Origin: Natronorubrum aibiense
GTDB taxonomy: Archaea; Halobacteriota; Halobacteria; Halobacteriales; Natrialbaceae
Length of the DNA stretch: 64,000 bases
Assembly: GCF_009392895.1 (NCBI RefSeq)
Contig: NZ_CP045490.1
Location: forward strand, 124,001 to 188,000
Direction of reading: 5' to 3'
A program made the position numbers and the translations under genes. This document shows positions 31,746-62,675 of the stretch, one piece after another; position 1 is the stretch's first letter, and every line of letters begins with the position of its first letter. Below the pieces are notes generated by a model that worked only from the letters and a program-made list of their open reading frames with translations, had not been told where the DNA came from and searched no databases.

Positions 31746-31835
31746 TGCTGATCGTTCGTGGAGCGGTTAGAAACCTGTTTTGGTAGTGGTACGATAGGTT
31801 CCGAAACTGTGACTGTATGCTATCCGGTAACGATG

Positions 31836-31844
31836 TACTTATTT
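31836..31844 (+). promoter_or_regulatory. TATA box of the thiolase operon
   Basis: TACTTATTT is centred 29 bases upstream of ATG 31869 and should drive the four-gene operon to 36196. Confidence 0.6.
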
Positions 31845-31868
31845 CGATGGGCTGAGCACGTACCCGAT

Positions 31869-33047
31869 ATGCGAGATGCATATCTGATCGGAGCCGGGCA
31901 GTCACCGTACGGTGCCTTCCCGGACGAGAGCTACCGGTCGCTGTTCCGGACGGCGTTCGAGGCCGCCGTCGAGAGCGTCCCGAACGGCCTCGAGACCGAT
32001 GACGTCGACGAGGCGTTCGTCGGCACCCTTGGTGTCGGGGGCCGCCAGCTCGGGCTGCCGGGGCCGGCCGTCACCGAACACGTTGGACTCGACGGCGTCC
32101 CGTGTACGCGGGTCGAAAACGCCTGTGCGGCGAGCGGGTTCGCCGTGCGACAGGCCGTCCAAGCCGTCAAATCGGGAATGGCGGACGTCGTCCTCGCGGG
32201 CGGGTTCGAGATCATGACTGACACGAGTTCGGACGCGACGAAGTACTGGCTCGGCGTCTCCGGCGAGACCGAGTGGGAACGGCTCTCGGGCACGACGTTT
32301 TCTGGCGTCTACGCTCAGATGGCCAGCGCCCACATGGACGCCTACGGGACGACGCGAGAACAGCTCTCTCACGTCGCGGTCAAGAACCACGCGAACGGCG
32401 CGAAAAACCCCCACGCCCAGCTGGGGTTCGAGTGCTCGCTCGAGGACGCCCAGTCGGCCCCGGTCGTCGCGGACCCGCTGAATCTCTATCACTGCTGTCC
32501 GACCTCCGACGGCGCGGCCTGTGCATTGATCGTGAGCGAGGACGTCGTCGACGACTATACCGACGAGCCGATTCGGGTTGCCGGCGTCGGCGCGGGCAGC
32601 GACACCGTCGGGCTCTTTCAGCGCGACTCGTATACGGGTGTCCCCGCGAGCCAGCGGGCGGCCGAGGCGGCCTACGAGATGGCAGAAATCGAGCCGGGCG
32701 CAGTAGATTTCGCGGAGGTCCACGACTGCTTCGCCATCGCCGAGTTGCTCGCCTACGAGGATCTCGGCTTCTGCGAAAAGGGCGACGCTGGCGAGTTCGT
32801 CGAGTCGGGTGCGACGAGACTCGAGGGTGAACTCCCGGTCAACACCTCCGGCGGCCTCAAGTCCAAGGGCCACCCGATCGGCGCGACGGGTGCCGGTCAG
32901 GTCGTCGAGGCGTTCAAACAGCTCTCGGGGACCGCGGGCGACCGACAGCTCGAGAATCCGACGCGGGGACTGACACACAACGTCGGCGGCAGCGGCGGTG
33001 CGGCCGTCGTCCACGTCTTCGAGAAGGAGACGGAGGTGAACGCATGA
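31869..33047 (+). CDS. Acetoacetyl-CoA-type thiolase (SCP2 family), catalytically complete
   Basis: The 392-residue protein has the nucleophile C86 in RVENACAASGFAVRQAV, the VHDCFAIAELL segment and NTSGGLKSKGHPIGATG with the active-site His. It should catalyse Claisen condensation or thiolysis of beta-ketoacyl-CoA. The start at 31869 (MRDAYLIGAG) fits the TATA box; a longer frame upstream to 31758 is not needed. Its last four bases overlap the next gene (ATGA), so translation is coupled to the HMG-CoA-synthase-like/DUF35 fusion, as in archaeal thiolase/HMGCS/DUF35 complexes. Confidence 0.9.
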   Translation: MRDAYLIGAGQSPYGAFPDESYRSLFRTAFEAAVESVPNGLETDDVDEAFVGTLGVGGRQLGLPGPAVTEHVGLDGVPCTRVENACAASGFAVRQAVQAVKSGMADVVLAGGFEIMTDTSSDATKYWLGVSGETEWERLSGTTFSGVYAQMASAHMDAYGTTREQLSHVAVKNHANGAKNPHAQLGFECSLEDAQSAPVVADPLNLYHCCPTSDGAACALIVSEDVVDDYTDEPIRVAGVGAGSDTVGLFQRDSYTGVPASQRAAEAAYEMAEIEPGAVDFAEVHDCFAIAELLAYEDLGFCEKGDAGEFVESGATRLEGELPVNTSGGLKSKGHPIGATGAGQVVEAFKQLSGTAGDRQLENPTRGLTHNVGGSGGAAVVHVFEKETEVNA

Positions 33048-34465
33048 CCGCGATCACTGCCATCGGGGCGTACGCACCACGGTTCCGTATCACGTCGGAG
33101 GCGTTCACCGAGGCTTGGGGCCAGTTCCAGGCCGCCGGCATCTCTGAGAAGGCCGTTCCCGCCGCCGACGAGGACGCCCTGACGATGGCCTACGAGGCGG
33201 CCACTCGAGCGCTCGAGGCCGCCGACTGCACGGGCGAAGACATCTCCTGGCTCGGCTTTGCCACCTCGAACCCGCCGCTTGCCGAAGAAGACCTTACGGC
33301 GCGCCTCGGCGCACTGCTCGCACTGCCGGCGGATTCGACGCGACACGTCTTTGCGGGCAGCACGCGCGCCGGCACTCGCGCGCTCTGGGCAGGGATGGAC
33401 GCCGTCGACGCGGGCTCGAAACGGGGACTGATCGTTGCAGCCGACGCCCCACAGGGAGAGCCCGACGACGCGGTCGATCAGGCTGCCGGCGCGGGGGCAG
33501 CGGCGTTCGTCCTCGAGACGGACGGCGAGGCGACGATCGTCGACCGCGCGGAGTACGCGGCCGCCTACCCCGGCACGCGATTCCGGGAGGCCGACTCCGA
33601 GACGACCGACGGCCTCGGCATCACGCAGTACGATCGGCAGGCGTTCGCCGAGACGATCGGCGGAGCCGTCGACGGCCTCGAGGTCGATCCGGACCCCGAT
33701 GCGGCGGCGATTCAGGCCCCGGACGGCAAACTTCCCTACCGCGTTGCCGGGCCAGCAGGCGTCGGCACCGACGAGATTCAGACGGCTGCAACGGTTCACG
33801 AACTGGGCGATCTCGGGGCTGCAAGCGTCCCGGTTTCGATCGCGCGTTCACTCGCCGACGGTCACGAGTCAGTGCTGGCCATCTCCCACGGGAGCGGGGC
33901 CGGGGCAGACGCGTTCGTCCTCGAGTCCTCGAGCACTGTTCCCGCCGTCGTCGACCTCGAGGGCGGCGACACGCTGTCGTACGCTGAGTACCTTCGCCAG
34001 CGCGGCGTCGTGACGAGCGGCCAGCCTGCAGGCGGTGGCGCGTACGTCAGCGTCCCGACGTGGAAACGCTCGCTGCCACAGCGCTACCGCCTCGAGGCCG
34101 GCCGCTGTCCCGACTGCGGGGCGCTTTCGTTCCCGCCGGGCGGGGCGTGTGACGACTGTGGCTCGCTCGAGGAACCGACACCGGTCGAACTCTCGGGTAC
34201 CGGCACGATCGAGGCCGTGACGACGATTTCGCAAGGCGGCGCGCCGCCCGAGTTCGCCGAACAGCAGGCCCAGTCGGGCGATTACGCCGCGGCGATCGTC
34301 GCCCTCGAGAGCGAGAACGGCGACACCGTCAGCGCGCCGGCGATGGGAACTGACGCGGAGCCCTCGGCGTTCGCAGTCGGCGACCGCGTCGAAACGACGA
34401 TCCGCCGGATCTACACACAGGAAGGTGTCACCCGGTACGGGTTCAAGATCCGCCCCACAGCGTGA
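33044..34465 (+). CDS. HMG-CoA synthase-like/DUF35 fusion lacking the catalytic cysteine
   Basis: Residues about 1-340 form a ketosynthase-III/HMG-CoA-synthase fold (start MTAITAIGAYAPRFRI, late SHGSGAGADAF). Residues about 345-473 are a DUF35 module with zinc ribbon C355/C358 and C369/C372 and an OB fold. In HMG-CoA synthase the acyl-Cys lies in NACKAGT; here the text is FAGSTRAGT, with Thr107 in its place. The fusion fits a thiolase partner subunit, perhaps structural and channelling rather than condensing. Fused versions are known in archaea from general knowledge; loss of Cys is seen directly. Confidence 0.83.
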   Translation: MTAITAIGAYAPRFRITSEAFTEAWGQFQAAGISEKAVPAADEDALTMAYEAATRALEAADCTGEDISWLGFATSNPPLAEEDLTARLGALLALPADSTRHVFAGSTRAGTRALWAGMDAVDAGSKRGLIVAADAPQGEPDDAVDQAAGAGAAAFVLETDGEATIVDRAEYAAAYPGTRFREADSETTDGLGITQYDRQAFAETIGGAVDGLEVDPDPDAAAIQAPDGKLPYRVAGPAGVGTDEIQTAATVHELGDLGAASVPVSIARSLADGHESVLAISHGSGAGADAFVLESSSTVPAVVDLEGGDTLSYAEYLRQRGVVTSGQPAGGGAYVSVPTWKRSLPQRYRLEAGRCPDCGALSFPPGGACDDCGSLEEPTPVELSGTGTIEAVTTISQGGAPPEFAEQQAQSGDYAAAIVALESENGDTVSAPAMGTDAEPSAFAVGDRVETTIRRIYTQEGVTRYGFKIRPTA

Positions 34466-34506
34466 CGAAGGGGAACGTTTTTGCTCGTGACACGAGAGCA
34501 GTAACC

Positions 34507-35397
34507 ATGCAAATCGCAGTGCTCGGAGCCGGCAGTATGGGCCACGGAATCGCACAGGTGTCCGCGATGGCGGGCCACGACGTCGTAATGCGAGACATCG
34601 ACGAGACGGTTGTCGAGGACGGCCTCGAGGGCATTCGATCCAACCTTCAGGGTGGCGTCGACCGCGACAAACTCACCGCAACCGAGATGGACGCCACCCT
34701 CGAGCGCATCACGGGAACGACCGACCTCGAGGCGGCCGTCGCAGACGCCGACCTCGTCATCGAGGCCGTTCCGGAGGACATGGATCTCAAGCGGGACGTC
34801 TTCGCGGATGTCGAAGCGGCTACGGGCGGGGAGACGATCATCGCCTCGAACACGTCCTCACTGTCCGTCACGGAGATGGCCAGCGTGCTCGAGCGACCCG
34901 AACGCGCCGTCGGATTGCATTTTTTCAACCCGCCACATCTCATGGACCTCGTCGAGATAGTCATCGCCGAACAGACTGACGAGCGAACGGAGACGTTCGC
35001 CGTCGACTACGTCCGGGATCTCGAGAAGGAAGACGTCGTCGTCCGCGACACGGCCGGCTTCGCGTCTTCGCGACTCGGCATCGCGCTCGGCCTCGAGGCG
35101 ATCCGGATGGTCGATCAGGGCGTCGCCAGCCCGGCTGACATCGACGAGAGCATGTCGATCGGCTACGGCCACCCGATGGGGCCGCTCGAGTTGACCGATC
35201 ACGTCGGCCTTGACGTGCGTCTCCACATCGCCGAACACCTTCGGGAGGAACTCGGCGAACGATTCAGGCCACCCCAGTCGTTGCGCCGGAAGGTCAGAGC
35301 GGGGAAACTGGGGAAGAAGACCGGCGAGGGCTACTACGTCTGGGAGGACGGCGATCGCGTCGGCATGAGCGGCGAGTGGGGTGAGGACGATGAGTGA
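34507..35397 (+). CDS. 3-hydroxybutyryl-CoA / 3-hydroxyacyl-CoA dehydrogenase
   Basis: The 296-residue protein has GAGSMGHGIAQV at its N-terminus, the catalytic-His segment GLHFFNPPHLMDLVE and a C-terminal helical domain ending KTGEGYYVW. It oxidises L-3-hydroxyacyl-CoA with NAD. It is third in the thiolase operon, 41 bases after the fusion gene, and overlaps the following enoyl-CoA hydratase by 8 bases, which gives a complete hydration-oxidation-thiolysis set. Confidence 0.92.
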   Translation: MQIAVLGAGSMGHGIAQVSAMAGHDVVMRDIDETVVEDGLEGIRSNLQGGVDRDKLTATEMDATLERITGTTDLEAAVADADLVIEAVPEDMDLKRDVFADVEAATGGETIIASNTSSLSVTEMASVLERPERAVGLHFFNPPHLMDLVEIVIAEQTDERTETFAVDYVRDLEKEDVVVRDTAGFASSRLGIALGLEAIRMVDQGVASPADIDESMSIGYGHPMGPLELTDHVGLDVRLHIAEHLREELGERFRPPQSLRRKVRAGKLGKKTGEGYYVWEDGDRVGMSGEWGEDDE

Positions 35398-36196
35398 ACT
35401 GACGGACGACTACGAGCTGCTCTCGGTCGAAATCGGCGAGCACGCCGACCGTGTCGCGACGGTCGCCATCGAACGTCCGGACGCGCGTAACGCGCTCAAC
35501 GGCACGGTTCGGACGGAACTGAAAGACGCCGTCGCCGCAGCCGAGGCGGACGACGACGTCCGCGTTCTCGTGCTCACGGGCGGCGATGGAACCGGCGCGT
35601 TCGTCGCCGGAGCCGACGTCACCGAGTTCAAAGACCGCGGCGTGATCGAGCAACGCGATGCCAGCGCGCGTCCGCGGATCTACGAGACCGTCGACGACGC
35701 CTCGATTCCGGTCATCGCCCGCATCAACGGTCACGCACTCGGCGGCGGCTGTGAACTCGCCCAGGCCTGTGACGTCCGGATCGCCCAGTCGGGTGCGAAA
35801 CTCGGCCAACCCGAAATCAACCTCGGGATCATCCCCGGCGGTGGCGGCACGCAGCGGCTCGCACGTCTCGTCGGCGAGGGACAGGCGATGAAACTGATCC
35901 TCTCCGGCAAACTCATCGACGCCGACGAAGCCCACGAGATCGGTCTCGTCGACGACGTGTCCGACGAAGACGAGCTCGACGACCGCGTCTACGATCTCGC
36001 CGGATCGATGGCCGCCAAAAGTCCGATCGCTCTCGAGTTCGCCAAGAAAGCCGTGAAAGCGAGTTCCCGGATGGGACTCGAGGAAGGTCTCGAGTACGAG
36101 GCCGAACTGTTCGTCCAACTGTTCGCGACCGACGACAAAGACGAAGGGATCGATGCGTTCCTCGAGGGCCGCGAGCCCGAGTTCACGGGCGAGTAA
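35390..36196 (+). CDS. Enoyl-CoA hydratase
   Basis: The 268-residue crotonase-fold protein has FVAGADVTEF, GGGCELAQACD and PEINLGIIPGGGGTQRL with both catalytic glutamates. It hydrates 2-enoyl-CoA. ATG 35390 is preferred over the GTG at 35381. The 8-base overlap with the dehydrogenase gene shows translational coupling. Last gene of the beta-oxidation operon. Confidence 0.92.
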   Translation: MSELTDDYELLSVEIGEHADRVATVAIERPDARNALNGTVRTELKDAVAAAEADDDVRVLVLTGGDGTGAFVAGADVTEFKDRGVIEQRDASARPRIYETVDDASIPVIARINGHALGGGCELAQACDVRIAQSGAKLGQPEINLGIIPGGGGTQRLARLVGEGQAMKLILSGKLIDADEAHEIGLVDDVSDEDELDDRVYDLAGSMAAKSPIALEFAKKAVKASSRMGLEEGLEYEAELFVQLFATDDKDEGIDAFLEGREPEFTGE

Positions 36197-36706
36197 GACT
36201 CGATAGAATAGTATGTAAATTGATGTGTGGATCATATTTACTAGCAAAATGCATACCCAATACTGCCCTGGATTGCCTGTTTTTGACCTCGAGACTGGAC
36301 CCTGTTTTGAGTGGGTGTTGGCCGATGATTGGTTACGGTATCGACGAATCACACAGCAGCGTCGATATCGTTTGTCTCGACTCGCACCCGCGGAACGGAT
36401 CACTCTGAGTGCAGTGTTCCCGACGGAACAGCGTACCTAGGGGTATTCGTTTCAAAACCGTCCGTGATAGTCTTGGATTGTCTATGGATAGTACCACTGC
36501 TCTCAGCACGTGGAACGTGATACGGTGAATGCTCGTGAGAGGTTCTTGATCGTATTCATTTTCCCGATCATGGACTGTCTCTTGAGGACCTCGATATCAA
36601 CTATTTACCATATACTGAATATGTATATGAAATCGATGGGTATGGAGAGTTGATTACATACCGATGATTAGCCGAACAGCCGAATCAAAGATTGCCAACG
36701 GATCCG
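36197..36706. other. AT-rich interval with a possible gene fragment
   Basis: About 510 bases without a complete gene, AT-richer than the flanks. The only coding-like text is the short open frame at 36539-36667, listed separately. Confidence 0.5.
36539..36667 (+). pseudogene. Possible 3' fragment of a lost gene
   Basis: A 42-codon frame without a start codon reads HFPDHGLSLEDLDINYLPY and continues with acidic and aromatic residues to a TGA at 36665-36667. The acidic composition is like a real haloarchaeal protein, but it is too short to name. Confidence 0.3.
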
Positions 36707-39460
36707 TTAGTTGTTAATTCGTTGGTAGGTGATTGTGTTTCGCTCTCGGAACACGATCGCAACCATACCCGGGTCGCGACTTCCCTCGAGGTCAATCGTC
36801 GTGGTGTCGCCTTCGGTTACGGTTTCGTCGTCGTCCCACTCCATCGGTTCGGTGTGAATCGGTTCGACGACGACACCCAGTTCGTCGGCGTCAATTTCGT
36901 CACCACCCGCATGTTCGATGGTGAGTTCCTCCGCAGCTGCACGGTATTCGACCTCAAACTCGGCATCCGGAACGATGACGTGATTACGAATCTCTCGTGG
37001 CTCGTCGGGGACGACCCACTGAACCGAGAGTTCAGTGCCGGTATCGAACGCGCCGAGTTCGACTTCGTCGTCGGCTGTCAACGTGTCGTGTTGATCCGAC
37101 GGCTGGACGGCCGTCGGCTCTCCATCGGAGAGAACCTCGAAATGCGCTGCGTCGCGGTCGATCTGCCCGCGGTAGATGGCTACAATCCCGTCTTCCCGTT
37201 CGTCGAACGTGAAGGCGAATCGGGGCTCGGGCGTGAAGTTGAAAATCGACCGATGGCTAACATAATTTTCTCCCTCCTGAATCAGCATGACGGTAATGCG
37301 GTCATCGACGCCAACGTCGTCGATGACGATCCCGTCCCCGGTGTTCAGCGTGTCGTGCTCCTGTGCGAACAGGGCTTGTCTCCGATCACCGTCGAATTGA
37401 CCATCGTTCCGGTGCTCGACCGAGAGCGGCTCCGGATCAGCCGGCTGTTCGCCCGTATAAACGAGTTCGACCGCTCCCGAATCTGGATCGTACGTCGCAT
37501 CGAACGACTCCCGACCGGCAGTCGTGTGTCCGAGCCGGTGCTCAGTCTCGTCGTCCACTGTCCACACGAGTTCGACCCTCGAGAACGGTTCGACGTCGAT
37601 CGTCATCTCGTCACCCGGTTTGAAGGTATCGTACTCGTCGGCGGGCTGGCTGTCCGCTGGCTCATCATCGATCCGAAGCTCGAGGTCGTCCGTCTCGATT
37701 CGATCGCCGTCGACGTGGTCGACCGTAACTGTCCCATCGGCGTCGTCGTACGTGAGATCGATGCGTGTGGACGGTCGAATAACCGACTCTTCTATGACGA
37801 TGGGGTCGTCCGGCTCGAGCCACTCGATGACGACGCTGGCTCCATGTTCGACATCGCCGAGGTCGATCTCGTCGCCGTTCGTGAGCGTCTCGGTAACGTC
37901 GGCGAACTGCACGTCTCCCGGTTCGTCGTCGACCAGCACGCGGAACGTGTCTGCATCCCGTTCGTGATCGTCCCAGTAGCGTGCAACGACGCTGTCGGGA
38001 CGCTGAGAGAGGTGCACTCGCGGTGGTCGAACGCGGAAGCGAACGAGCGGCCGCTGGCCACGGTTCGGATTGGCTGGCGTCGACAACTCGAGTGTGATCC
38101 GGTCACCAAGGGAGACATCGTCGACTGTCATCGTCTCACCGGTCGTGAGCGATTCCGAATCGAGCTGGATCTCCTCCCGGGTCGGGGGAGACGCTTCGTT
38201 GTCGGCTTGGTGAATCAACTCGAGACGGTCCGAATCGGCCTCGAGTTCGCCGACGTAGGTGAACTCGACGGTGTCCGTGTCGACGTCATAGTCGAGTTCG
38301 AACGAATCTCGCCCGACGAGTACCGTCTCGTAGTAGTAGTACACGTCCTCGGCTTCGTCGAACCAGCGGAGGCCCACGTCGGCGATCGGGCCCGTTTCGA
38401 GTTCGAAGGTGTCCCCTTCGGAAAACGCCTCGTAGTCGTCGTCGAGTTGCTCGTCCGCCAGTTCGCCATCCATCCAGACCTCGAGGTTTGCCGTCTCGAT
38501 TGACTCGCCGTCGGTGTGTTCGATCGTCACGATCCCCTCGTCGGCGTCGGCATGCGCTCGAACCCGTGCGTCGGGTGCCGCAGCTCGATCACGTTCTGGC
38601 GGCTGATCGACGACTGCTTCGACGTGGACGATGTCGTTCGAGTGATCGCGGTCGACCGTCGTCTCGACGAACTCCCCTCGTTCGATCCGCTCGAGTCGCT
38701 CGAGCAGCCACTCGTCGTCGACGTCGGCGTCCGAGGCGAGTTCGAGAACGTACTCGCTTTCGGTCGTTCCCGAGCGCACTGTCGGCGACTGTGCGAACCC
38801 GACGCCGATCGATTGGACGGTCCCGTCGAAGTCGATGTGGAGGTCATCCTCGAGGTTCGGGAGGAAAACCACGTACGCCTGCGACTCGAGGCGGTCGAAG
38901 ACGTGCTCGGTTACTTCGGGGCTGACGAGAACCGAGTCAGCGTCATCCTGGGCCGACTCTGCAACCGTTTCGGCAATATCGGTCGACTCCGATCCGGAAA
39001 CGACGACCAACTGTTCGTCCGCAGCGGCGAACGCATCGCCGTCGTCGAGCGTCCCAATTCGCCAGTCTCCATCCTCGTCGGCATCACCTGCGTCCGGTTG
39101 ATCGAACGACCCGGTGACGGCGCTGAGTCGGACGCTGCCGTCTCCGGCGACCGCTGAGACGGCGCTGGATACCGACTCCGAGTCGACAGCCGAATCGACA
39201 GCTGAAACGTGGTCGAGGATCTGTCGTGTCTCGTACTCGAGTTCATCTTCGTCGATTTCCTCGACGTGTACGTAGTGGAGTCGTCGATATTTCGTATCGA
39301 GGGTCGATTCTGCGGGGACCAGTTCGAGGACGGTCTCGAGGTCGGACGACAGCGTCGTCTGACCATCGCCGTCAGCGTCATCCGCCGCTGCTGCGGTGTA
39401 ACCGGAGAGGGCAACAGCTGCGACGGTACCGCTTCCGACGATCATTTCACGTCTTCGCAT
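36707..39460 (-). CDS. Large Tat-exported protein with tandem pilin-like beta domains
   Basis: The 917-residue, very acidic protein starts MRRREMIVGSGTVAAVALSG, a Tat-like signal without a lipobox Cys. Residues about 40-290 form an N-terminal globular region. From about 298 to 917 roughly seven repeats of 80-95 residues follow (near 298, 386, 480, 566, 654, 748 and 833). Each has the outline VTIEHTDGESIETANLEV, a variable strand pair, a GD-x-hydrophobic turn and a closing RVELVW-like strand. This resembles the C-terminal beta domain of archaeal type IV pilins. No C-terminal anchor is visible. A surface or adhesive role is inferred. Confidence 0.8.
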   Translation of the reverse strand: MRRREMIVGSGTVAAVALSGYTAAAADDADGDGQTTLSSDLETVLELVPAESTLDTKYRRLHYVHVEEIDEDELEYETRQILDHVSAVDSAVDSESVSSAVSAVAGDGSVRLSAVTGSFDQPDAGDADEDGDWRIGTLDDGDAFAAADEQLVVVSGSESTDIAETVAESAQDDADSVLVSPEVTEHVFDRLESQAYVVFLPNLEDDLHIDFDGTVQSIGVGFAQSPTVRSGTTESEYVLELASDADVDDEWLLERLERIERGEFVETTVDRDHSNDIVHVEAVVDQPPERDRAAAPDARVRAHADADEGIVTIEHTDGESIETANLEVWMDGELADEQLDDDYEAFSEGDTFELETGPIADVGLRWFDEAEDVYYYYETVLVGRDSFELDYDVDTDTVEFTYVGELEADSDRLELIHQADNEASPPTREEIQLDSESLTTGETMTVDDVSLGDRITLELSTPANPNRGQRPLVRFRVRPPRVHLSQRPDSVVARYWDDHERDADTFRVLVDDEPGDVQFADVTETLTNGDEIDLGDVEHGASVVIEWLEPDDPIVIEESVIRPSTRIDLTYDDADGTVTVDHVDGDRIETDDLELRIDDEPADSQPADEYDTFKPGDEMTIDVEPFSRVELVWTVDDETEHRLGHTTAGRESFDATYDPDSGAVELVYTGEQPADPEPLSVEHRNDGQFDGDRRQALFAQEHDTLNTGDGIVIDDVGVDDRITVMLIQEGENYVSHRSIFNFTPEPRFAFTFDEREDGIVAIYRGQIDRDAAHFEVLSDGEPTAVQPSDQHDTLTADDEVELGAFDTGTELSVQWVVPDEPREIRNHVIVPDAEFEVEYRAAAEELTIEHAGGDEIDADELGVVVEPIHTEPMEWDDDETVTEGDTTTIDLEGSRDPGMVAIVFRERNTITYQRINN

Positions 39461-39756
39461 GGCTGACCGTTCTGTAGTATTACACTTTAACCTGTTGAAA
39501 ATATAAACAGTGGTCTGGAATGTCACCAATAGCTGTTGCAACACCAACAACCTGAAATCACGGACGCCGATTCGGTCGTCCAGGAACCGTTGCGTTGGCG
39601 ACCTACAGACACACGGCGCGTACGATCTCATGATCAGGCCGGCGGTTCGGTTCACTGCCGATCGAGCACGCGACGTTCCCTCGAGAGCGACTCGAGTCCG
39701 TCGAGGAACGATTTCACAGTGTGCTGGTTTGTAGTGTCAGCGACCACTGTGTCGCT

Positions 39757-42578: not shown

Positions 42579-43817
42579 TCAAGACGCATACGTTCCACGC
42601 GTCAACTGCTGGATTTCAGCATCGGCTTGGCTGTCTTGTGGCGCGGTCAAACGCGCCCCATCCTCAGCCGAGTCATCGTCGTTCGTGTGTTCTCTAGAAC
42701 GACTCTCTCCACTGAGGTAGCGGTCTGCGATGTTTGTCGCCCCGTTCACGTCCGCTTGGTACTCACCCACCCAGCAGTCGTCGTTCGTGCATTTGAACGT
42801 CGCCTGCTTCGGACGATATCCGACCTCACCGCACTCATGGCACTCTTTTGACGTGTTACGCGGATTCACCGTCTCAACGGGAATCCCCTTCTCGACTGCC
42901 TTGTACCGGATCTGGGCGTGGAGTTTGGCGAATCCCCAGCCGTGAAGACGGCGGTTCATATACTCGCCGTAGTCCATCGACTCCCGTATGTATGTCAGGT
43001 CTTCCAGAACCAGTACGGGATTCTCGACGGACTCGGCGTACTCCACGACTTCGCGGGTGACACGGTGGAACACGTCGTCTATCTGGTCCCACAAATCGTC
43101 GCCGAACAACTCAGCGATACGGTCGCTCCCGCGTTCTTGAAGCCGTCGCGTGGCGGTGAAGTAGGTCTTGCGTAGCCGACGAACGGTCTTGCCCTCGTCG
43201 GTCCACAGTTCGGGGCGGGTCGGAGAGCCGTGGTCGTCGCGGTGACACACCGTGACGAGTGACGCTTCCCCAATGTCCGCTCCGATAGGCGTCTGTTCAT
43301 CGCTGGACACCTCGTGGCAATCCTCCACGTCGCGGGTCGCGGTGACGTGGAGATACCACGTTCTCTCCCGCTTGAACAGCCGACTCTCACCCATCTCGGC
43401 GTCACCAGCGTTCAACGCTTCAAGCCAATCCCGCTGTTCGGGGTTCGGCTGTGCTGGCATCCAGAGATGGTAATCCTCGTGGTGAGGGATTTTGACGTAC
43501 CACTCGATAGCGTTCTCGGGGTTGTGGTCAAGCCGTAACCCTTCGTTCGTGAAGCGGACAGGGTGGTCGTCGTGAAGGTCGCCCGCGTTGTACGTCGTCG
43601 TCAACTGCGGGACGTACTTCTTGAGGGCGTTCTTCGCGTATCCCGATAGGTCGTAGTTGACCACCACGTCGTTCGCTTCGGTCTGCGTGGTACATCCGGC
43701 GTCGAAGGCGTCTTGGAGGGCGTGCCGGTACGCTTCTCGTGTCTCTCGGAGTTTTCTCCGCTTGTGGACGTTCGGGTCCACAAGTTTGAGTTCCAACGTC
43801 TTCGTGAGCTCGGTCAT
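42579..43817 (-). CDS. tnpB: TnpB RNA-guided endonuclease
   Basis: The 412-residue protein has an intact RuvC triad: Asp in IGADIGEASLVTV, Glu in VLVLEDLTYIRE and Asp in YQADVNGATNIADR. The zinc ribbon CHECG...CTNDDC lies between the last two. It nicks or cuts DNA under guidance of an RNA from the element's right end and helps retain the element. It overlaps tnpA by 4 bases. It differs clearly from the tnpB at 25095, so two separate acquisitions are likely. Confidence 0.92.
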   Translation of the reverse strand: MTELTKTLELKLVDPNVHKRRKLRETREAYRHALQDAFDAGCTTQTEANDVVVNYDLSGYAKNALKKYVPQLTTTYNAGDLHDDHPVRFTNEGLRLDHNPENAIEWYVKIPHHEDYHLWMPAQPNPEQRDWLEALNAGDAEMGESRLFKRERTWYLHVTATRDVEDCHEVSSDEQTPIGADIGEASLVTVCHRDDHGSPTRPELWTDEGKTVRRLRKTYFTATRRLQERGSDRIAELFGDDLWDQIDDVFHRVTREVVEYAESVENPVLVLEDLTYIRESMDYGEYMNRRLHGWGFAKLHAQIRYKAVEKGIPVETVNPRNTSKECHECGEVGYRPKQATFKCTNDDCWVGEYQADVNGATNIADRYLSGESRSREHTNDDDSAEDGARLTAPQDSQADAEIQQLTRGTYAS

Positions 43818-44203
43818 GAATCGCCCTCCGTATGTTCTTGAACGTAGTTCTCGATAGTCTCACTCGAAACATGCCCGGCGGTTCCTGCGTAGCATCCTCG
43901 CGCCCATCCGATTTTCTCACCCTCGTGATCGGCGTATCGGTGATTGTACTTGCGCGAGGAGATACCGTTAAACCAGTTGGCGAGTAGCGCCGGTTCGTTC
44001 GTGGGCGGGCTATTGACGAACAGGTGTACGTGGTCGGGCTGTACTGTAAGGTCGAGAATTTCGACACCTTTGTCGTCGGCGATTTCGTGGAGGATGGACC
44101 GCACACGGTCTGCGACTTCGTTGACGAGTACCGGCTGGCGGTACTTCGGCAACCACACTATGTGGTAGTTGAGATTGTAGGTCGCGTGCCGTGTGGTTCT
44201 CAT
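43814..44203 (-). CDS. tnpA: TnpA Y1 (HUH) transposase
   Basis: The 129-residue protein has the HUH motif in QPDHVHLFV and a catalytic Tyr candidate in ETIENYVQEH. It starts RTTRHATYNLNYHIVWLPKYR, the canonical IS200 N-terminus. It excises and inserts single-stranded DNA at hairpin-marked ends. The ATGA overlap couples its translation to tnpB. Confidence 0.93.
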   Translation of the reverse strand: MRTTRHATYNLNYHIVWLPKYRQPVLVNEVADRVRSILHEIADDKGVEILDLTVQPDHVHLFVNSPPTNEPALLANWFNGISSRKYNHRYADHEGEKIGWARGCYAGTAGHVSSETIENYVQEHTEGDS

Positions 44204-61692: not shown

Positions 61693-62160
61693 ATGGATTA
61701 CTCCGCCCCGAATGTTGAATGTCAGCATTTGACTTGTCGACATATCGATTTTCCATCTCTTTTTTCTCGGTATTGGAATGTACCCTGGCAAACTCGTAAA
61801 CCGGTCAGAGGTGACACGAATTCCACTCTTTCTCGAGGTCCTTGGTCCCCGATCGAATCACAATATCCTCTGTCCTGTTTCGGTATCGAAACTCGCAGGA
61901 GCAGTCCACTGACGATTTTATGGGAGATTCGAAACGTCCAGATCGTCCCATCATCGACCGAACGCCGACGTGCTGGTACTCGAGAGCAGCTTCGTGAACG
62001 AGATTGCGCACCAGATGAGAGGTGCTGGCCGTCGCGTCGGTGGGTACGAGGGATCGCTGCTGAGACACGAGGTGTCGAGGTGATGTACCGAGACGCCTCG
62101 AATGGATACCAACTGCTACCCGAGAGTGTTTCTGTCAGCGACCTTGATGAGGAGGTATGA
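61693..62160 (+). CDS. Doubtful ORF overlapping the lipoprotein gene
   Basis: A 155-codon frame ends in TGA overlapping the ATG of the lipoprotein gene, an arrangement typical of coupled genes. Its composition is Arg- and Cys-rich with few acidic residues except at the end (SVSDLDEEV). It may be real only in its 3' part, frameshifted, or spurious. Confidence 0.25.
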   Translation: MDYSAPNVECQHLTCRHIDFPSLFSRYWNVPWQTRKPVRGDTNSTLSRGPWSPIESQYPLSCFGIETRRSSPLTILWEIRNVQIVPSSTERRRAGTREQLRERDCAPDERCWPSRRWVRGIAAETRGVEVMYRDASNGYQLLPESVSVSDLDEEV

Positions 62161-62675
62161 GATCCAATTCACTCCCCTCAAGACGACAGCTAGTCGGAAC
62201 AGTCGGGACGCTCGTACTCGGAACGCTGGCCGGATGTGGCAATCGATCGGATTCGACCGATGAAGGGGATTCGGCGGCTGGATCGCCGGACGATTCGAAC
62301 GTGGAACTCGACCTTCGGGAGGCGAACGTTGTTGACGTGTCGTTCGAACGAGACAATAGCCAGTATATGTTCGACGTTACGCTGCGTCACGACGACGAGG
62401 GAGAAGATGGATTTGCGAATTGGTGGCAGATCGAACGACTCGACGGGACGCAACTCGGTCGCCGTGAGCTAGCTCACGCACACACGCAGCAACCGTTCAC
62501 GCGCTCCGAGACGATCGACGTTCCGGACGACGTGACCTGTGTGGTCATCCGAGGGCACGACCAGACACACGAGTACGGCGGGCAACTGATGATCGTGAAT
62601 CTCGCCTCAAGCGAGATACGAACCGTCGATCAAGGGTCTGATCGGGAGGCCGTCGACGAGAGTGAGTGTCCCTGA
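62157..62675 (+). CDS. Tat lipoprotein, function unknown
   Basis: The 172-residue protein starts with SRRQLVGTVGTLVLGTLAGCGN, a Tat motif with a lipobox cysteine near residue 26. An Asp/Ser-rich linker leads to a beta-rich domain of about 110 residues (VVDVSFERDNSQYMFDVTLRH). It is anchored on the outer face of the membrane. No enzymatic motif is visible. Confidence 0.8.
   Translation: MRSNSLPSRRQLVGTVGTLVLGTLAGCGNRSDSTDEGDSAAGSPDDSNVELDLREANVVDVSFERDNSQYMFDVTLRHDDEGEDGFANWWQIERLDGTQLGRRELAHAHTQQPFTRSETIDVPDDVTCVVIRGHDQTHEYGGQLMIVNLASSEIRTVDQGSDREAVDESECP

Follow-up and report, generated by a model that had tools for sequence, protein, structure and literature searches.

The protein described here, encoded in a 64,000-nucleotide stretch of Natronorubrum aibiense DNA (the window), carries a predicted Tat signal and seven tandem domains that resemble the heads of haloarchaeal type IV pilins, in the order A-B-C-A-B-C-A'. 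The homology of all seven repeats to the beta-sandwich head of these pilins is well supported. The domain itself is already known, while its tandem, Tat-exported architecture is new. With a probability of roughly one half, we read the product as an envelope-bound surface protein in which a fixed-length array of non-polymerizing heads constitutes the working part and makes position-specific contacts.

The gene is complete and lies on the minus strand, with its ATG at 39460 and its stop codon at 36707–36709 (Table 1). The ATG at 39460 is the right start, since the same first residue is used by several orthologues. A TATA-like box upstream suggests that the gene possibly has its own promoter. An overlapping plus-strand ORF of 603 aa (36692–38503) is taken as a probable mirror frame of the GC-rich coding strand. 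The N terminus, MRRREMIVGSGTVAAVALSG, is a Tat-type signal in which R3 and R4 are invariant across the seven-head family; hydrophobic positions and a mild h-region come after the twin arginine, an arrangement that predicts export. The motif reads RREMIV in the window protein versus RRRFLGGS in relatives, and divergent orthologues carry textbook Tat signals, e.g., RPSRRRFLGGSALTLAAL. The earlier note had placed a Tat-exported protein of 917 residues at these positions; its coordinates were right. The window protein has no lipobox cysteine, and no cysteine occurs anywhere in its 917 residues; a lipobox is found in L017, L023, and the paralogues L094, L113, L093, and L112. Outside the signal, no hydrophobic helix is present in the protein, and no C-terminal anchor or hydrophobic segment follows R7, which ends the chain. 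Another Tat-signal ORF in the window (62157–62675, plus strand; 172 aa) has a lipobox (SRRQLVGTVGTLVLGTLAGCG).

Table 1. Features of the seven-head gene in the window.
Feature	Position	Strand	Basis
Complete gene, 917 aa	36707..39460	-	ORF; orthologues share start residue
TATA-like TTTATATT, 40-47 bases upstream of ATG	39500..39507	-	sequence only
Tat signal peptide (predicted), ~residues 1-26 (RRREMIVGSG...; twin Arg invariant; without lipobox)	39383..39460	-	
N-domain, residues 29-292; without Pfam or PDB family; least conserved part of mature protein	38585..39376	-	
Repeat R1 (type A), residues 293-385	38306..38584	-	profile comparison
Repeat R2 (type B), residues 386-478	38027..38305	-	profile comparison
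Repeat R3 (type C), residues 479-562	37775..38026	-	profile comparison
Repeat R4 (type A), residues 563-651	37508..37774	-	profile; AlphaFold2 pLDDT 91.5; PDB match to H. volcanii pilus
Repeat R5 (type B), residues 652-742	37235..37507	-	profile comparison
Repeat R6 (type C), residues 743-829	36974..37234	-	profile comparison
Repeat R7 (type A', most pilin-like), residues 830-917; ends protein	36710..36973	-	profile

The relationship to pilins emerges from profile and structure comparisons. Searched against the whole protein, the Pfam model Pilin_N (PF07790) gives E=5.9e-13; its best stretch covers profile positions 33–76 of 78, corresponding to the start of the head, and leaves the N-terminal helix half unmatched. 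A profile of 29 haloarchaeal pilin heads, used with 20 shuffles per repeat, matches all seven repeats with scores of 24.6–80.5 versus at most 17.8 for the shuffled controls. Moreover, a profile of 14 repeats (from the window protein and its Natrialba asiatica counterpart) matched a single chain in the whole PDB, 8fj5 (E=1.6e-5). The same entry, the Haloferax volcanii type IV pilus, is the sole match below 1e-3 when the AlphaFold2 model of R4 is compared with the PDB by Foldseek (E=5.2e-5; TM 0.74 by query). The confident fold applies to R4 alone, and the pilin likeness of R1–R3 and R5–R7 rests on sequence. The R4 model also gives a weak fold match (E=0.14) to 4p94, the archaellum stator FlaF, which has a single domain versus seven in the window protein. 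No viral relatives were detected among viral contigs, and no viral structure matched significantly.

What the window protein lacks relative to the haloarchaeal type IV pilins is the apparatus for polymerization. The class III signal motif, R-[AG]-x-S-[PT], is not found in the ORF, and the N-terminal hydrophobic polymerization helix is absent (Pilin_N is matched at positions 33–76 only and no hydrophobic segment occurs past the signal). The two share the head, in sequence for all repeats and in fold for R4, but in the window protein seven heads are joined in one chain and export is predicted to proceed by Tat. It had been suggested from the DNA alone that the repeats resemble the C-terminal beta domain of archaeal pilins and that the pilin signal is missing. 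Both statements hold, and structure prediction, named there as a check and run with confidence on R4, returned the archaeal pilin fold.

The seven repeats, which span residues 293–917 and are 84–93 residues long, are also related to each other. Repeat profiles were built from 30 orthologues and compared pairwise, with column shuffles as the control. All 21 pairs score between 24 and 172, versus at most 19 for the shuffles; neither half of the N-terminal region (residues 30–292), which served as the negative control, is clearly similar to any repeat (at most 18.5). The top scores belong to R1–R4 (145), R2–R5 (138), and R3–R6 (172), while the other pairs reach 24–84. These best-scoring pairs indicate that the array consists of two A-B-C blocks and a final A-like domain. 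The earlier expectation of about seven repeats of 80–95 residues with a shared outline is thereby made exact, and the profile alignment proposed for judging their similarity found them alike. The A-B-C-A-B-C-A' order, the constancy of the copy number at seven, and the relatives with one, four, or six copies go beyond what had been noted.

The gene for the seven-head protein is present in about 45 of the 391 genomes of the class, and when 393 genomes of the phylum were searched, the matches were confined to the same order. Exactly seven repeats were found in 33 of 33 orthologues examined, the most divergent being about 36% identical, and the window protein conforms to the definition of this seven-head Tat family, an N-domain joined to exactly seven heads ordered A-B-C-A-B-C-A'. 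The positions keep their identity as well: among the 30 aligned orthologues, the closest match of a repeat in other species is the repeat at the same position in 210 of 210 cases, and for R1–R6 the next closest position is the super-period partner in 180 of 180 cases.

Among the relatives with other copy numbers are Tat lipoproteins that have one, four, or six heads. Domain typing gives A-B-C-A' for the four-copy families (L092, L095, L109, L111; L094, L113) and roughly A-B-C-C-C-A' for the six-copy family (L093, L112). These families have the same order of domain types as the window protein and, by profile, the same N-domain family. A single C-terminal head is found in L035 of the same genome and in L096, L097, L098, L099, L101, L103, L104, and L105. 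Like the window protein, these single-head Tat lipoproteins combine a Tat signal, an N-terminal globular region, and a C-terminal pilin-like head, but they have one head instead of seven and a predicted membrane lipid anchor. Their N-terminal regions differ: those of L096, L104, and L105 are weakly like that of the window protein, whereas those of L035 and L097 are different. R7 is the best-scoring repeat for 25 of the 29 pilin heads and for 11 of the 14 single-copy heads. The A-B-C-A' order of the four-copy paralogues suggests that duplication of a block of three domains enlarged the array to seven copies. In the simplest history consistent with the sequences, the array would descend from one single-copy pilin-like head by tandem growth to A-B-C-A', followed by duplication of the A-B-C block.

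Several other occurrences of the head were observed. L035 (853–1812; region G000:C1:284789-285076) encodes a Tat lipoprotein of ~300 aa, and L034 (604–1755), likewise in the genome of the window, has a single pilin head behind a pilin-type signal and, toward the C terminus, additional sequence of no recognized kind. In L102 and L110, a pilin-like head lies behind an internal membrane helix, while in L100 the head follows a pilin-type signal and precedes what by eye appear to be PKD-like repeats.

The N-domain (~260 aa) is common to the four- and six-copy paralogues, against which its profile scores 56–76 versus at most 18.4 for shuffles. Comparison with the PDB and Pfam gave nothing convincing and no recognized binding module. 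A thiolase match (E=0.018) is taken as spurious, and a likeness to bacterial DUF3352 finds no support in Pfam scans of the relatives. Mean pairwise identity is 37% in the N-domain versus 46–56% in the array. The better conservation of the array, together with its invariant number of repeats, suggests that the protein probably works through the array and not through the N-domain, with the array being more than a spacer.

These data lead to the following model. Tat export would deliver the product as a surface protein of the haloarchaeal envelope. The N-domain would be the membrane-proximal part, given that in several relatives a lipobox cysteine immediately precedes it; among predicted lipoproteins of haloarchaea, the majority are Tat substrates (PMC2945643). 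The seven heads may extend as a fixed-length, non-polymerizing array through or along the S-layer, and each head position would show its own conserved face to a surface partner, be it the S-layer, a pilus, or another cell. Several points speak against this model. The sole full-length AlphaFold2 model, built from two sequences, is poor (pLDDT 46) and supports no arrangement, extended or other; neither the domain arrangement nor the N-domain fold was taken from it. In addition, the neighborhood, in which no gene is conserved across genera, yielded no partner. The window protein, having neither a lipobox nor a C-terminal anchor, may also simply be released. A bolder version is that linked pilin-head arrays form a dedicated class whose members act in trans on the S-layer or on pili, which they might cap, surround as a collar of fixed length, or bundle as a ruler, with seven position-specific faces evolved from pilins by block duplication; we consider this version speculative and unlikely.

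A different possibility is a factor that caps, collars, or bundles type IV pili, its linked heads imitating pilin heads or binding to them. The head homology is indeed specific to haloarchaeal pilins and not to Ig folds in general, and the same genome has pilin genes, with three Pilin_N matches over the cut-off, and two matches to the T2SSE family of secretion-type ATPases. However, no pilus genes lie near the gene in the window or beside its relatives, and many lipoproteins carry this head as a single copy. Pilins polymerize via the N-terminal helix, so that a shared head does not imply pilus binding. The archaellin family PF01917 is absent in 9 of the 45 genomes with the seven-head gene versus 88 of 391 overall; the genome of the window is itself without an archaellin, which the same search finds in 303 of the 391 class genomes. 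These rates suggest that the seven-head protein is not tied to archaella, and a link to the archaellum was rejected on these grounds. Neither gene neighborhood nor archaellin co-occurrence points to a filament; we regard a pilus-associated factor as unlikely.

Should the array only display or anchor the N-domain, it would be a passive stalk. A chain of Ig-like domains is an architecture typical of stalks, and the four- and six-copy relatives retain the N-domain although copy number differs between the families. Yet the array is the better conserved part, copy number is constant within the seven-copy family, and the positions keep their identity, all of which makes a mere spacer rather improbable. 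Less credible is a secreted adhesin or cell-recognition protein directed at surfaces, other cells, or polysaccharide. Such a protein would fit with export by Tat, with the beta-sandwich domains in tandem, and with the putative lipoproteins among the relatives, but the N-domain contains no binding module recognizable by Pfam or PDB comparison. Moreover, the repeats of adhesins usually vary in copy number, and no such variation is seen among the orthologues.

An S-layer-type protein can be considered very improbable. In haloarchaea, S-layer proteins consist of arrayed Ig-like domains, and the H. volcanii S-layer glycoprotein (csg) resembles the window protein as a surface protein with a row of such domains (PMC8640222). 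However, csg has a C-terminal membrane anchor, a feature missing from the window protein, and there is no detectable sequence similarity: the repeat profile matched no PDB chain, csg included, except the pilin 8fj5. The restriction of the gene to a minority of the class genomes likewise argues against an S-layer role. Finally, the view that the similarity merely reflects acidic, low-complexity halophile composition (Asp and Glu make up 26% of the protein) is refuted by the column-shuffled and reversed profiles of equal composition, which fail to match, and by the independent fold match.

The architecture shows a second use of the pilin head. In pili it coats a polymer whose cohesion comes from a different part of the molecule; here it serves as the unit from which single-chain arrays in exported proteins of haloarchaea are built. 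That the count stays at seven and that conservation is specific to each position make for a clear, testable claim, namely a defined partner or geometry of the array. Haloarchaea carry the family widely, and its N-domain is unnamed; family libraries give a partial match to a model built around the pilin N terminus, and neither Pfam nor NCBIfam holds a named family for the architecture. A tandem array of such domains in a secreted protein had been noted as not known to be described. In keeping with this, no description of a tandem pilin-head array in a Tat-exported, non-polymerizing protein was found in the open-access papers searched, which does not prove its absence elsewhere.

In the window, the gene is surrounded by beta-oxidation genes, a gene for a universal stress protein, and an IS200/IS605-type element; across genera no neighbor is conserved, and synteny is local, among close relatives only. 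Just downstream of the gene, at 31758–36196 (plus strand), genes for a thiolase/ChsH2-like OB-fold protein, a 3-hydroxyacyl-CoA dehydrogenase, and an enoyl-CoA hydratase stand in a row. The IS200/IS605-type element occupies 42579–44203 (minus strand), where the Y1 transposase TnpA (43814–44203) adjoins a TnpB-like protein (42579–43817) whose TNB domain is Cas12f1-like.
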